This document shows, piece after piece, positions 26,112-32,118 of a DNA stretch of 60,931 nucleotides. The translations under genes were made by a program, and so were the position numbers. The notes under the pieces are model-generated. The model was not told the origin of the DNA, searched no databases, and saw nothing but the letters and a program-made list of their open reading frames with translations. Source of the stretch: Pirellulales bacterium (lineage in GTDB: Bacteria; Planctomycetota; Planctomycetia; Pirellulales; DATAWG01); NCBI GenBank assembly GCA_035939775.1, contig DASZFO010000350.1, forward strand, positions 1-60,931. The letters run 5' to 3'. Every line of letters starts with the position of its first letter. Position 1 is the stretch's first letter.

Positions 26112-26558
26112 TTGCCGAAAACCATCTTGCACCCGACCGATTTTTCGGATTGCTCGAACTGCGCGCTGCAAATCGCAGCCGATCTGGCGACCAAGTATGG
26201 GTCGCAAATCTTCGTGCTGCACGTTGTCGAGACGCTCGGCCCCGCTAACGTCACGTTCGGCGAAGTTGGGAACCAGCTCGAACCCGAAGGTTATCGGGAC
26301 CGGTTGTGGGCGGAACTTCGCAAAATGAAACCTCTCGGGCCTCCCGAAAGCTCGATCGATTATCTGTTGGTTGAAGGGGACCCAGCAAGAGGGATCGAGC
26401 AGGTCGCCGAACAACGGCACTGTGATCTGATAGTTATGGGCACGCATGGTCATCGGGGATTAGAGCGGTTTTTCATGGGAAGCGTCGCCGAGCACGTTGT
26501 CCGCAAAGCGGCGTGCGCGGTTGTGACCGTGAAGTTGCCGCGGGCAGCGGTGTCATGA
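26112..26558 (+). CDS. universal stress protein (UspA family)
   Basis: A 148-residue protein. TTG 26112 is chosen because it gives the standard start MPKTILHPTDFSDCSNCAL, and AGG lies 5 bases upstream. The nucleotide-binding signature GTHGHRGLERFFMGSVAEHVVRKAACAVVTVK (G-2x-G-9x-G-S pattern) is intact, so it is an ATP-binding-type Usp. It lies on the opposite strand between the second RND permease and its adaptor, and its last 6 bases overlap the permease stop. TATAAT at 26063-26068 is a possible -10 box. Confidence 0.88.
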   Translation: MPKTILHPTDFSDCSNCALQIAADLATKYGSQIFVLHVVETLGPANVTFGEVGNQLEPEGYRDRLWAELRKMKPLGPPESSIDYLLVEGDPARGIEQVAEQRHCDLIVMGTHGHRGLERFFMGSVAEHVVRKAACAVVTVKLPRAAVS

Positions 26559-29500
26559 ACGGGTTGATCCTACGGGAACCGCTGCTGGAATCCTGAGTTG
26601 AGCCGCGAAATCGGATTCTGACAATTCGGCGTCAACGTCGGTCTCTGGCCTTGTCGAATCGCGAACCAGTAGCGTGTAAATAATAGGGACGACGATCAGA
26701 GTAAGGACTGTGGAGGTGAGCAAGCCGCCGACAACGGCCCGCGCCAAAGGCACGTTGGCCTCGCTTCCGCGCCCCAGGCCAATCGCCATCGGCAGCAGGT
26801 CGAGAAACGTCGCCAAGAAGGTCATGATGATCGGGCGAAAGCGGATGCTGGCGGCGGTAGTGATAGCGCCCTGAACCGACGCCCCCAAGCGGCGCTGCTT
26901 GTTCGCGAAATCGACCAGCAGGACGCCGTTGGCCACGACGATGCCCACCATAAATATTACGCCCATGCTCGACTGCACGTTGAGCGTCGTGTGCGTGATA
27001 AATAACATCGCCAACACGCCGATCAACCCCAACGGAACGGCGAACATAATGATGAACGGAGTCAAAAATGAGCGGAACAGCACGACCAGCAGCAGGTAGA
27101 CCAAAACTGAAGCCATTGCTAAGCCGAAACCGAGGCTGCCGAACGACTCGACCATCCGCCCATATTCCCCGCGAACATTGATCCGCATGCCGTTGGGAAA
27201 AAGCAATCCTTGGTTCTCAAGCACGTCGGGCATCTTGTTGCCGTTTTTCACCTCCTGTTGCCATTGCGCGAGTTGAAGACTCTTGAGCCGGCTTTGAATC
27301 TCGCCCGACACGCCGCCGATATCGCGGTTCTCGGTGTTCACCTGCACATCGAACACGCGCGCCAGACTGACGTGGTTCACTTCGACTGGAGCGCTGCTCG
27401 GCTCAATCGTAACCAAGCTTCCCAATTTAACCGGATGCATCCGGATGGTGCCTGTGGCTGGGATGTCGAGAACATCTTCCAGCCGCTGGCTTGGATTCTC
27501 GGGGTACTGCACGCCGACGAAGTATTGATTGCCGGACTTGTAGTCTATCCAAAAGTTCCGCTTGATCGAGACGCTGGAATTCATCGCCGTGGCCACTTGG
27601 TTGATGACCTGCGCGAGATCGAGTCCGGCGTCGGCGGCTTTCTTTCTATCGACGACGATAATCCGTTGCGGGGCATCGAGCCGCTGTTGGATGTGGACGT
27701 CGGCGGCTCCGCGGATGCCAGTCACGTTGTCGCGAACATGCTGCGCCAGGGCGAGGGCGTCTTTGAAGCTGCCCCCCTCGATCTGCACGTCGATCGGCGA
27801 AGAGGCCCCATAATTCAGTGCCGCCGAGACCATGCCGCCGGTGTCGAAGCTAATCCGCAGGTCGCTGAATTTTCGATTCTCGTCGAACGCATGTCGTAGA
27901 GCGATGGCGTATTCCTGAGCGCTCTTTGTCCGCTCGTCGCTGAGCTGGACCTTGATGGTGCAGTCTTGGGTTCCCGAATCCGCCGTGTAAGCGGCCGACC
28001 AATCTGGAACCAATCCGAGTTCGGAGATGATCATCTTCCGCTCGTCAGTCGGGATGTAGTCTTTGAGGAATTGCTCGACCTCACTCACCCGTTGCTCAGC
28101 CGCTTCCAGGTTGGTGCCCGAGGGCGTGCGCAGATAGAGCGTGATCTGCCCGGCGTCGATCTGCGGGAAGAATTCCCGACCGATTCCCAAGAGCAGCGCG
28201 AGCGAGCCGCAGAAAAGCAGCCCCACGCCGATCAGCACCGGCGCGCGATGCCGTAGCGCCATCGCCAGCACGCGTTCATATCGCCGCGTAACGAATTGGA
28301 TCACCAATTCGATTCGATGATGGATCCGCTGCCCCCAACCTTTCGTTTGATGCTCGTCGCCCGGATGTGCATGGCCCCCCAACCATTTGGCACAGAGAGC
28401 CGGCACGAGCGTCTGTGAAAGAAAAAACGAGGCCAGCATCGCGAAGGCGACCGCCAGCGTCAACGGGCGGAAAAGGAATCCGCCCATCCCCGGCATCAAG
28501 GCGATCGGGCAAAGCACGATGATCGTCGCCAGCGTGGCCACGAGCACGGGAGTCGTCACCTCCGCCGCTCCATCGAACGCCGCCGCGATTCGCGACTTGC
28601 CCAACGTGTGGTGGCGGTGCGTATTCTCGAGCACCACGATCGCATTATCCACAAGCGGGCCAATGGCTAGGGCTAGCCCTCCCAACGTCATGGCGTTGAT
28701 CGTGTTGCCGGTCGCAAACAGTCCCACCAGCGAGCAGAGAATCGCCAGCGGAATCGACAAGGTGGCGATCAAAGTCATCCGGCCGTTACCCAGGAAGATC
28801 AAGATCATGGCCGAGACCAGAAAGGCCCCAATCACTCCCTCGTGGATCAGGCTCGTAATGGCCTCCCGCACGGAGACGGACTGATCCATCACCAGGTCCA
28901 ATTGCACGTCCTTGCCTTCGGCCTTGAGAATCGACATCATGCGCGGGATTTCGTTTTTCACGCCATCGACGACCGTGAGCGTACTGGCCCCTTGCTGGCG
29001 ATAGATCGGGACGTAAACTTGGCGGCGGCCGTTGATCCGCACGAGCGCCGTTTGAATGGCGCTGGCGTCTTTGGCATAGCCGATGTCGGAGAGATACACT
29101 CGATTGCCTGGATCGGTTCGGATTGGGATTTGGTTCAATTCGTCGACCGCACTGACCATGGCGTTGGAATCGAGTTGGAATTCGTAGCCGCCGAACTTCG
29201 CCACGCCAGGCGTGACCATAAGATTCTGCCGCCCCAGCGCATCGACCACGTCCAGCGGCGACAGATGGCGGGCCTGCAATTCCTGGGGATTCACGTACAC
29301 CAGGATCGTGCGGTCCTTGCCGCCGAACACAGCCGGCGCCACCACCCCCTTGACCCCGCCGAGCATATTGCGAATCTCGATACGGGCTAAGTCCTTCAGT
29401 GCCGTCTCGTCCAATCCCGAATTGCTCGGGCTGCTGACCGTCAGGACTCCCAAAGGCAAAGTGCCAGTCGGATCGAACGGCTGCACCACCGGCGGCAGAG

Positions 29501-29867
29501 TATTGGGAGGCAAAGTGGGCAGAGTGCCCAAGGCCAGCGAATTCACCTGGGTCAGCGCGCCGTTGGGGTCGATGTCGTCCTGGAAGTAGAGCCGCACGAC
29601 GCTCACCCCCAGCGTCGATTTCGATTCCACGCGTTGACAGCCGGTCGCCTGATTGGTCCAGCGCTCGATGCGGTTGGTGATGGTTTTCTCGACGGATGCG
29701 GTGGGCATCCCCGAGAAGTAGGTCATCACCTGGACCGCAGGCGCTTTGAAGACCGGCAGAATATCGACTGCGATCCGACTGATGGAGAGGACGCCCATCA
29801 CGAGGATCAACAGCGCCATCACCGTGACGGCGTATGGGCTCTTCAGGGCAGTTCGGATGATCCACAT
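26553..29867 (-). CDS. RND efflux permease, second copy
   Basis: A 1104-residue, 12-helix RND pump protein. N-terminal helix MWIIRTALKSPYAVTVMALL is typical. It also has FSGMPTASVEKTITNRIERW, QELQARHLSPLDVVDALGRQN and [20 protein letters not shown] in helix 4, where AcrB's Asp-Asp is Asp-Asn. It is only distantly similar to the permease at 7430-10591, so the two systems are not a recent duplication. The start ribosome site is weak. The adaptor gene follows on the same strand after a 545-base gap occupied by the antisense Usp gene. Confidence 0.92.
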   Translation of the reverse strand: MWIIRTALKSPYAVTVMALLILVMGVLSISRIAVDILPVFKAPAVQVMTYFSGMPTASVEKTITNRIERWTNQATGCQRVESKSTLGVSVVRLYFQDDIDPNGALTQVNSLALGTLPTLPPNTLPPVVQPFDPTGTLPLGVLTVSSPSNSGLDETALKDLARIEIRNMLGGVKGVVAPAVFGGKDRTILVYVNPQELQARHLSPLDVVDALGRQNLMVTPGVAKFGGYEFQLDSNAMVSAVDELNQIPIRTDPGNRVYLSDIGYAKDASAIQTALVRINGRRQVYVPIYRQQGASTLTVVDGVKNEIPRMMSILKAEGKDVQLDLVMDQSVSVREAITSLIHEGVIGAFLVSAMILIFLGNGRMTLIATLSIPLAILCSLVGLFATGNTINAMTLGGLALAIGPLVDNAIVVLENTHRHHTLGKSRIAAAFDGAAEVTTPVLVATLATIIVLCPIALMPGMGGFLFRPLTLAVAFAMLASFFLSQTLVPALCAKWLGGHAHPGDEHQTKGWGQRIHHRIELVIQFVTRRYERVLAMALRHRAPVLIGVGLLFCGSLALLLGIGREFFPQIDAGQITLYLRTPSGTNLEAAEQRVSEVEQFLKDYIPTDERKMIISELGLVPDWSAAYTADSGTQDCTIKVQLSDERTKSAQEYAIALRHAFDENRKFSDLRISFDTGGMVSAALNYGASSPIDVQIEGGSFKDALALAQHVRDNVTGIRGAADVHIQQRLDAPQRIIVVDRKKAADAGLDLAQVINQVATAMNSSVSIKRNFWIDYKSGNQYFVGVQYPENPSQRLEDVLDIPATGTIRMHPVKLGSLVTIEPSSAPVEVNHVSLARVFDVQVNTENRDIGGVSGEIQSRLKSLQLAQWQQEVKNGNKMPDVLENQGLLFPNGMRINVRGEYGRMVESFGSLGFGLAMASVLVYLLLVVLFRSFLTPFIIMFAVPLGLIGVLAMLFITHTTLNVQSSMGVIFMVGIVVANGVLLVDFANKQRRLGASVQGAITTAASIRFRPIIMTFLATFLDLLPMAIGLGRGSEANVPLARAVVGGLLTSTVLTLIVVPIIYTLLVRDSTRPETDVDAELSESDFAAQLRIPAAVPVGSTRS

Positions 29868-30175
29868 ATTTTCGAGTTCTTCATGCGTACAGTTTTCAAT
29901 ACGAAGCGGAACCTATATTGTTTCGCACCGAGCGATCAAGGGCAAACGTATTCGACAGTCGGCAAGATGATCCGGACCTGTCGATATGCAGCACCATCTA
30001 GTGGTCTGAACCGCGGGACGAGCCGGCCAGGAACAACCTGGCACCTCGACTCCGGTGACTTTATGCAAATCGGTCGTCCGTTCGCCGATGACGAAAGGCG
30101 TGCTGCGAAGCACGCCAGCGGCGCCCGACCGTAAGCATCGCATCGTTGCCGCCACGAAGACCATGAAGAAGCCCG
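29868..30175. other. intergenic region upstream of the second RND permease
   Basis: About 310 bases between the CsrA-like gene and the permease, both on the minus strand. It holds the hairpin at 30097-30116 and presumably the permease promoter. I see no gene and no clear promoter boxes. Confidence 0.5.
30097..30116 (-). terminator. hairpin downstream of the CsrA-like gene (possible terminator)
   Basis: GGCGTGCT and AGCACGCC pair perfectly around a GCGA tetraloop, 60 bases after the CsrA-like stop. On the minus strand TTTCGTCATC follows, a weak T tract. It is a plausible end point for the sigma-54 operon transcript. Confidence 0.55.
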
Positions 30176-30415
30176 TCATGGCGGCGGCAGTGCGTTGGAA
30201 AAGAAGCAATTGACCGAATCCAGAACGAATACCCGCTGATCCGGACCGTTTGGATCGATGTCGATTCCAAGTCGCACGCGATCACGCTCTATTCCAAGCA
30301 CGAAAAGGTCGACGCTGTCATTGATTCGCATTCTTTCACCCGGTATCCCTCCGAGAACTAGCATTGGACGTTTCCCACGTCGCGACACGTAGTAGCTCCA
30401 CCCGTGGCCATTCAT
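30176..30415 (-). CDS. degenerate CsrA-like protein
   Basis: A 79-residue protein. GAGGAGG lies 8 bases before ATG 30415, which supports this start; ATG 30364 would give the bare CsrA-like core. The core reads MLVLGGIPGERM, then INDSVDLFVLGIERDRVRLGI, and aligns with CsrA strands 1-4. CsrA's RNA-contact Arg near position 6 is Gly here, and the Arg of the C-terminal VxRxE motif is replaced (VFVLDSV). The extra 17 N-terminal residues would sit at the dimer edge. It lies 127 bases after a normal csrA gene in the same direction. It may be a CsrA antagonist, or decaying; the strong ribosome site argues for expression. Confidence 0.65.
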   Translation of the reverse strand: MNGHGWSYYVSRRGKRPMLVLGGIPGERMRINDSVDLFVLGIERDRVRLGIDIDPNGPDQRVFVLDSVNCFFSNALPPP

Positions 30416-30542
30416 CGTTACGGCCTCCTCGTGAATTTCGTATGACACCGACCGCCGCCCTGGATAGAAGTGGTTTCTGCCTGACCGGCATCGGATCGGC
30501 TTGCGGCAGCAACAGACGGGGCGATCACCTCGCAAATTGTTC

Positions 30543-30749
30543 TCACGGACAACCCTTCTTGTCGCTCAAGCACGAGGTCACACCATCGCTCGACTGCATT
30601 CGCTCGGGAATTTCCGTGCGTCGGATCAGCACGTCCGGGGGCGCCGAGAATCCGAGTTTGACCTTGCCGTTCTCGATCTTCAGCACTTGAATCTGGATCA
30701 CCGAGCCAATAACGATGCTTTCGTTTGCCTTGCGAGTAAGCACTAGCAC
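30543..30749 (-). CDS. csrA: carbon storage regulator CsrA, copy 1
   Basis: A 68-residue protein with GTG start and GGAGGA 6 bases upstream. MLVLTRKANESIVIG, IQIQVLKIENGKVKLGF and APPDVLIRRTEIPERM are the canonical CsrA strands and helix, with the RNA-contact residues (Leu4, Arg6, Arg in IRRTE) kept. CsrA dimers bind GGA motifs in mRNA leaders and alter translation or decay. Here it follows a CheY-like gene by 101 bases and precedes a degenerate CsrA-like gene. Confidence 0.95.
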   Translation of the reverse strand: MLVLTRKANESIVIGSVIQIQVLKIENGKVKLGFSAPPDVLIRRTEIPERMQSSDGVTSCLSDKKGCP

Positions 30750-30850: not shown

Positions 30851-31270
30851 TCATGGGCAATTTGCGGACATGGTCGTCGGCGGCAATCCTGACCGAAATG
30901 GCTCAGTCCCGTCACGATTCGTCAAGAGCCTGTCGGCTATCTGCTTCAACTCGGCAAGGTCGTCGGTCTTCTCAACGCAGGCCGCGGCCAGCCGGCTGCG
31001 ATGGTCCCGCACACAATCTTCATCATGTGCCGTAAAGAACATGATTGGAATCGTAGGGGCGATGGCTTTGATTCGCTGAGCGGCTTCGAATCCATTCACG
31101 ATCGGCATATTAATATCGAGAATCGCCAAATCGATATGCTCCTTTTGCACAAGACGGGCCGCCTCCGCCCCGTCGCGAGCCAGAAGAACGCGGTATCCCT
31201 CGTCCTCAAGCTCTTGTTTGCAGAATTCGCGTATGTTCTTGTTGTCGTCGGCGAAGAGGATGCTTCTCAT
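30851..31270 (-). CDS. single-domain response regulator (CheY-like receiver)
   Basis: A 139-residue protein. ATG 31270 overlaps the previous gene's stop (ATGA), which points to translational coupling and rejects the open upstream extension. The acidic pocket Asp8-Asp9 (LFADDNK), phospho-acceptor Asp52 (LAILDINMP), Thr80 (MFFTAHDED) and Lys101 (VEKTDD) are all present. There is no output domain, so it must act on a partner. The likely kinase is at 33719-35233. It stands between a secreted protein and csrA in a predicted sigma-54 operon. Confidence 0.92.
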   Translation of the reverse strand: MRSILFADDNKNIREFCKQELEDEGYRVLLARDGAEAARLVQKEHIDLAILDINMPIVNGFEAAQRIKAIAPTIPIMFFTAHDEDCVRDHRSRLAAACVEKTDDLAELKQIADRLLTNRDGTEPFRSGLPPTTMSANCP

Positions 31271-32118
31271 GGTTGCGGCCGTGCGTAATTCTGCTGCGTG
31301 GATGCCGATGGCGACTGAGATCCCGCGGGCTGCGAGCCGGCCGCGTGGGCTTCGGCCAGCTTCATCGCTCGATCGGTGATCTTCATCGCCGCGAGAATCT
31401 CGTCCCTGGAGAAATAGATTTCGTCGCCGCCGATCAGGTGATGGATTTTCTTGTCGAGCAATTGCTCCCAGGTCATGTGGTTGGCCAAATGCCAAGCGGC
31501 GGCCTGCGCGGCGTGCTGGTCGATCTGCCCGGTGCCGAGCAGCTTGCACAGTTCCTGAACGTTCGGATCGCTCGTGAAGGATTCAATGGGGCGGATTTCG
31601 TAGGGGACATGGGCGTTCGGCTCTTTCTTGCCGTGTTCGAGGCAGACCGTTTCGAGCTTGATCTTGGCGACCTTCTCCGGGGCAACGTCGAAGGCCCCGC
31701 CGCCCCCCATCATGCCGCCTCCCATCATGCCCATTCCACCCCCGCCTCCCACGCCCTGATTTTGGCTGCTATTGTTGCTGTTTGAACTCTTGCGAGTCGT
31801 GTTCCCGCCGGCGCCGGCGGCTTGAGCCAGAACGGGGACAGCCGCAAAAGCGTCGGGAAGCTTCACCGTCAGAGGCTGATGGGTCTTGTTCATAACGAGC
31901 AATTGTCCGTCGCGCGAATCATGGGGGATAAACTTCACGCCGATGTCGCCCCTTTTTATCGCATCGAACAGATTGACTGACGTCTTGTCGGGCAATTTGG
32001 ACGACGCGTCGTTGGACTCGTCGCTCGGCGCGGCAGTTTTGGTTGAGGCGACCGACAAACTGGCGGCCGCCACCAGCGTCAACATCCATGCCAATTTGTT
32101 TCCACAAACAGAATTCAT
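31267..32118 (-). CDS. planctomycete secreted protein of unknown function, first gene of the sigma-54 operon
   Basis: A 283-residue protein with GGAGG 7 bases before the ATG and a signal peptide (LAWMLTLVAAASLSVAS). It has an N-terminal domain (VNLFDAIKRGDIGVKFIPHD, VMNKTHQPLTVKLPDAF), a Gly/Met-rich spacer around residues 125-145 and a C-terminal domain (ETVCLEHGKKEPNAHVPYEI, ESFTSDPNVQELCKLL, QAAAWHLANHMTWEQLL). I recognise the pattern from planctomycete hypothetical proteins; no function is known to me. Transcription is predicted from the -24/-12 site at 32182-32196, about 64 bases upstream. Confidence 0.8.
   Translation of the reverse strand: MNSVCGNKLAWMLTLVAAASLSVASTKTAAPSDESNDASSKLPDKTSVNLFDAIKRGDIGVKFIPHDSRDGQLLVMNKTHQPLTVKLPDAFAAVPVLAQAAGAGGNTTRKSSNSNNSSQNQGVGGGGGMGMMGGGMMGGGGAFDVAPEKVAKIKLETVCLEHGKKEPNAHVPYEIRPIESFTSDPNVQELCKLLGTGQIDQHAAQAAAWHLANHMTWEQLLDKKIHHLIGGDEIYFSRDEILAAMKITDRAMKLAEAHAAGSQPAGSQSPSASTQQNYARPQP

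Follow-up and report, generated by a model that had tools for sequence, protein, structure and literature searches.

A divergent CsrA-family protein with a disrupted RNA-contact surface encoded beside a normal csrA gene in a Pirellulales bacterium

The usual control of CsrA is through decoy RNAs or through proteins, FliW and CesT among them. The RNA surface of CsrA is made up of strands 1 and 5; binding is destroyed by the substitution R44A, and glgC is fully repressed only when the dimer has both of its RNA sites (PMC7652899). Mixed dimers containing a single R44A subunit have been produced (Mercante 2009, reviewed in PMC7652899) and illustrate how a dimer in which one RNA site is dead would work. 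Among natural proteins, RsmN/RsmF of Pseudomonas aeruginosa is a diverged and rearranged CsrA paralog found alongside normal copies, in which a helix is inserted between strands 2 and 3 (~16 residues) and strand 5 and its Arg (R62) are kept (PMC3791407). The plasmid-encoded RsmQ is an extra CsrA-family protein that heterodimerises with resident CsrA proteins, RsmQ/RsmA/RsmE heterodimers having been seen by two-hybrid analysis (PMC9928087).

The window analyzed here, a stretch of 60,931 nucleotides from a Pirellulales bacterium (contig DASZFO010000350.1), likewise encodes a diverged CsrA-family protein in addition to normal CsrA (Table 1). With the CsrA/RsmA family (PF02599), this paralog shares the framework of strands 1–4, MLVL...GE...I.D...VLGI..D.VRLGI, but Arg6, position 7, A36, P37, V40, V42, and E46 are replaced, an extension precedes the core, and no strand 5 is recognizable. 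Unlike RsmN/RsmF, its core aligns without an insertion between strands 2 and 3, and the changes are in strand 1 and the tail. RsmQ, in contrast, keeps VHRE/D and itself binds a GGA sequence, and the R44A subunit, while comparable in its expected effect on a dimer, is engineered rather than natural.

Table 1. Features of the divergent csrA locus (window positions)
Feature	Position	Strand	Remarks
Divergent CsrA-family ORF	30176..30415	minus	79 aa; ATG 30415, stop 30176; residues 18–54 correspond to CsrA positions 1–37
N-terminal extension	30365..30415	minus	17 residues, MNGHGWSYYVSRRGKRP; AlphaFold strand at residues 7–11, low confidence
CsrA core, positions 1–37	30254..30364	minus	position 6 Gly, position 7 Ile
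Tail where strand 5 and helix are expected	30179..30253	minus	Arg at 44 if aligned gap-free
Shine-Dalgarno AGGAGG	30424..30429	minus	8 nt before ATG 30415
Normal CsrA neighbour	30543..30749	minus	68 aa, starts with GTG; has R6 and R44; Pfam score 68.9 bits
Single-domain receiver (CheY-like), upstream	30851..31270	minus	ortholog 64% identical in G001, the other family genome
RND efflux transporter (ACR_tran), downstream	26553..29867	minus	directly after the receiver in G001

The initial annotation, made from the DNA letters, had described the reading frame, its extension ahead of MLVL, a strong ribosome site, and a normal CsrA 127 bases upstream, and all four descriptions held, the last distance running from the stop of the normal gene to the ATG of the divergent one. 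The sequence AGGAGG is rare in this position, preceding 4 of the window's 1471 ATGs; apart from the paralog, it stands mostly ahead of long genes, with ORFs of 581 and 334 aa starting at two of the four. Together, the strong Shine-Dalgarno sequence, the open frame, and the family score indicate that the paralog is probably translated. No sigma-70-type promoter was found for it, which says little in this bacterial group; the search for known RNA elements gave none above threshold, and the leader folds showed nothing unusual. Between the divergent csrA and the RND transporter gene are 308 bases (29868–30175, minus strand), and a GCCGCCAC/GTGGCGGC stem there overlaps the stop codon of the paralog.

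In the only other genome of the family that was compared (G001), the genes for histidine kinase, sigma-54 regulator, receiver, and RND transporter are arranged in the same order, with a gap of ~100 bases and no csrA between the last two. The csrA pair was therefore either gained in the source lineage or lost in that of G001. In the source genome, a gene between the sigma-54 regulator and the receiver (31270–32118, minus strand) encodes a 283-aa protein with a Gly/Met-rich stretch and no Pfam match. This genome carries ten CsrA copies above the Pfam cut-off besides the divergent paralog, and three of the eleven fall inside the window (at 30254, 30594, and 40420). Another odd CsrA of the same genome (C363:869–1024, MQIFTLKKN...VSVHRKE) has Phe4 and Leu6 in strand 1 and keeps the strand 5 motif VSVHRKE; no close ortholog of it was present in 39 relatives. 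A recent tandem duplication of the neighbouring csrA was ruled out as the origin of the pair, as no long repeat exists between the two genes and the tree keeps them apart. In this tree, of few columns and weak resolution, the neighbour joins CsrA proteins of other genomes, and the divergent paralog is unplaced on the longest branch (2.29 changes per column; median 0.23).

The assignment to CsrA had been based on a MLVL...GERM...VRLGI scaffold, which is indeed present and gave no match in 100 shuffles of the window, so that its occurrence is beyond chance. The Pfam profile CsrA (PF02599) scored 30.0 bits, above its cut-off of 27, and covered profile positions 1–37 of 53. With the NCBIfam equivalog TIGR00202, the paralog reached 25.3 bits, far below the cut-off of 70.1, of which the normal neighbour also falls slightly short (68.3 bits).

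At CsrA position 6, the alignment confirmed Gly in place of Arg, with Gly at position 5 and Ile at position 7. The reported loss of the VxRxE arginine depends on the alignment: the setting of the motif (A36, P37, V40, V42, and E46) is destroyed, but an Arg lies exactly at position 44 when the tail is aligned gap-free, as it was by MAFFT with both 10 and 46 sequences. Taking VFVLDSV as strand 5 requires an insertion of about five residues, which puts Asp at 44 and makes the loop before the strand longer. As judged from the residues, the canonical surface is lost under both alignments, with either V40, V42, and E46 or R44 gone; the two alignments differ on the survival of strand 5, which the swapped dimer needs.

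The starting point for a list of contact positions was the RNA surface of strands 1 and 5, in which L4 and R44 are critical (PMC7652899). Among the positions that 60% or more of 52 CsrA cores of the source and related genomes share, the paralog kept 16 of 18 in the scaffold and 2 of 9 (L4 and R44) in the RNA contacts (Fisher p = 0.0012 in the gap-free register, an optimistic value because the losses cluster in two runs, 5–7 and 36–46, and maybe reflect few independent events). The remaining contact positions were added from the general picture given by CsrA–RNA structures. These counts support the original suggestion that the canonical RNA-contact surface was lost while the framework of strands 1–4 was kept, and a protein with this composition should not bind RNA canonically.

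How unusual the change at position 6 is can be seen from scaffold searches. Allowing any codon with G as second base at position 6, 80 matches were obtained in 20 related genomes, and the codons, read directly from the matched sequences, specified Arg in 79; the exception was the divergent paralog. Second bases A, C, or T gave no match in 146 genomes of the order, where about four scaffold matches per genome are expected. When the genomes of ~85,000 species were scanned for codon 6 specifying Gly, Cys, Trp, or stop, two places were found, one an intact Gly6 and one nonsense, with a pattern that fits 56 of 71 CsrA cores and thus misses some variants. Arg6 is also present in each of the 65 distinct CsrA proteins retrieved from viral contigs. 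By these sequence scans, replacement of Arg6 is extremely rare in CsrA. The sole intact case in the large scan (SIAF01000148.1, 1394–1606) is a Gly6 CsrA that is otherwise canonical, a natural single-site test of Arg6; the other (JAJDED010000007.1, 1325–1422), from a planctomycete MAG, carries TGA in place of the conserved Arg codon at residue 6 and reads as a nonsense-broken csrA copy.

An AlphaFold monomer of the paralog (46 sequences; mean pLDDT 70, extension 54–72) has strands at residues 7–11 (in the extension), 18–22, 28–31, 35–42, and 47–53 and a helix at 60–75, placing CsrA strands 1–4 only. A control model of the normal neighbour, built with the same sequences, had only three strands and no strand 5 either, so that the single-chain model is unable to judge strand 5 or the dimer. 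In Foldseek, CsrA chains ranked first with weak E-values, ~38 residues superposing at 2.3–2.6 Å on truncated chains and at 5–6 Å over whole chains, and VIA-align gave Z values of at most 4.2.

We tentatively regard the paralog as a CsrA-fold protein that is specific to its lineage, evolves fast, lacks canonical RNA binding, and possibly pairs with normal CsrA. At the sequence level, it retains the hydrophobic framework of strands 1–4 without the canonical surface that grips A(N)GGA, and it could be a non- or weakly RNA-binding subunit exchanging into dimers with the upstream CsrA or with further CsrA copies of the cell. Such a mixed dimer would have one good RNA site at most, which would lower CsrA activity, perhaps on the very efflux operon that holds the paralog. 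Pairing with normal CsrA is plausible by analogy with published heterodimers (PMC9928087). That the paralog is a natural dominant-negative CsrA, namely a dedicated partner without an RNA site, located next to normal csrA and poisoning or tuning CsrA through mixed dimers, we consider unlikely. Against the preferred reading, strand 5, required by the swapped dimer, may be lost in the paralog, and its atypical codon use and lack of orthologs also count against it. Protein searches for orthologs found none in 57 relatives, the family, a collection of genome contigs, viral contigs, or plasmids. The initial annotation, which had proposed inactive heterodimers, had itself reckoned absent orthologs against that proposal, and the idea is weakened accordingly by their absence from the collections searched. 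A single match on a viral contig was spurious, being in another reading frame and antisense to a longer ORF.

Nearly as likely as the preferred reading is that a redundant csrA copy, one of about a dozen in this genome, has lost its function and is eroding, with its start site and frame intact by chance. Decay would be consistent with the absence of orthologs from all collections searched, the length of the tree branch, the ten other CsrA copies above the cut-off, and the G001 operon without the csrA pair. Codon use points in the same direction, as the paralog scored −0.05 bits per codon, near the 4th percentile among coding windows and within the wrong-frame range (+0.32 for the neighbouring csrA), and has low GC3. 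In simulated neutral drift of four csrA genes of the same genome to equal core identity, the frame was still open in 27%–42% of runs before indels are counted, and elsewhere another csrA (JAJDED010000007.1) is interrupted by a nonsense codon at its sixth residue. On the other hand, in the same simulation, which used these four genes in place of the true ancestor and covered substitutions without indels, a CsrA profile score as high as that of the paralog was left in no more than ~1% of runs; since drift seldom leaves such a score, the scaffold has probably not simply drifted. Decay also agrees poorly with a strong and correctly spaced AGGAGG and with a framework retained far better than the contact surface, and a profile search of all frames detected no frameshifted remnant of the normal CsrA tail.

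A distinctly less probable explanation is that the paralog is a CsrA variant whose RNA specificity is new, in which the basic arm RRGKR, immediately ahead of strand 1, and Arg44 of the gap-free register would bind RNA another way. RsmN offers a precedent as a rearranged CsrA dimer that binds RNA (PMC3791407), but it keeps strand 5 and the conserved Arg, and in the paralog Arg6, Lys7, A36, P37, V40, V42, and E46 are all replaced. Very improbable is a protein-binding CsrA-fold module unrelated to CsrA dimers, either with another partner or with its own N-terminal strand capping strand 1. Protein partners of CsrA are indeed known, including CesT and a flagellar assembly factor (PDB entries), and the model has an extra strand ahead of strand 1, but the confidence of that model is low.

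If the paralog is a non-binding partner of CsrA, a genome-encoded blunt subunit would add another way of controlling CsrA, for which genomes carrying about ten csrA copies would offer a natural setting. If it is merely decaying, it would still record which CsrA positions stop mattering first.
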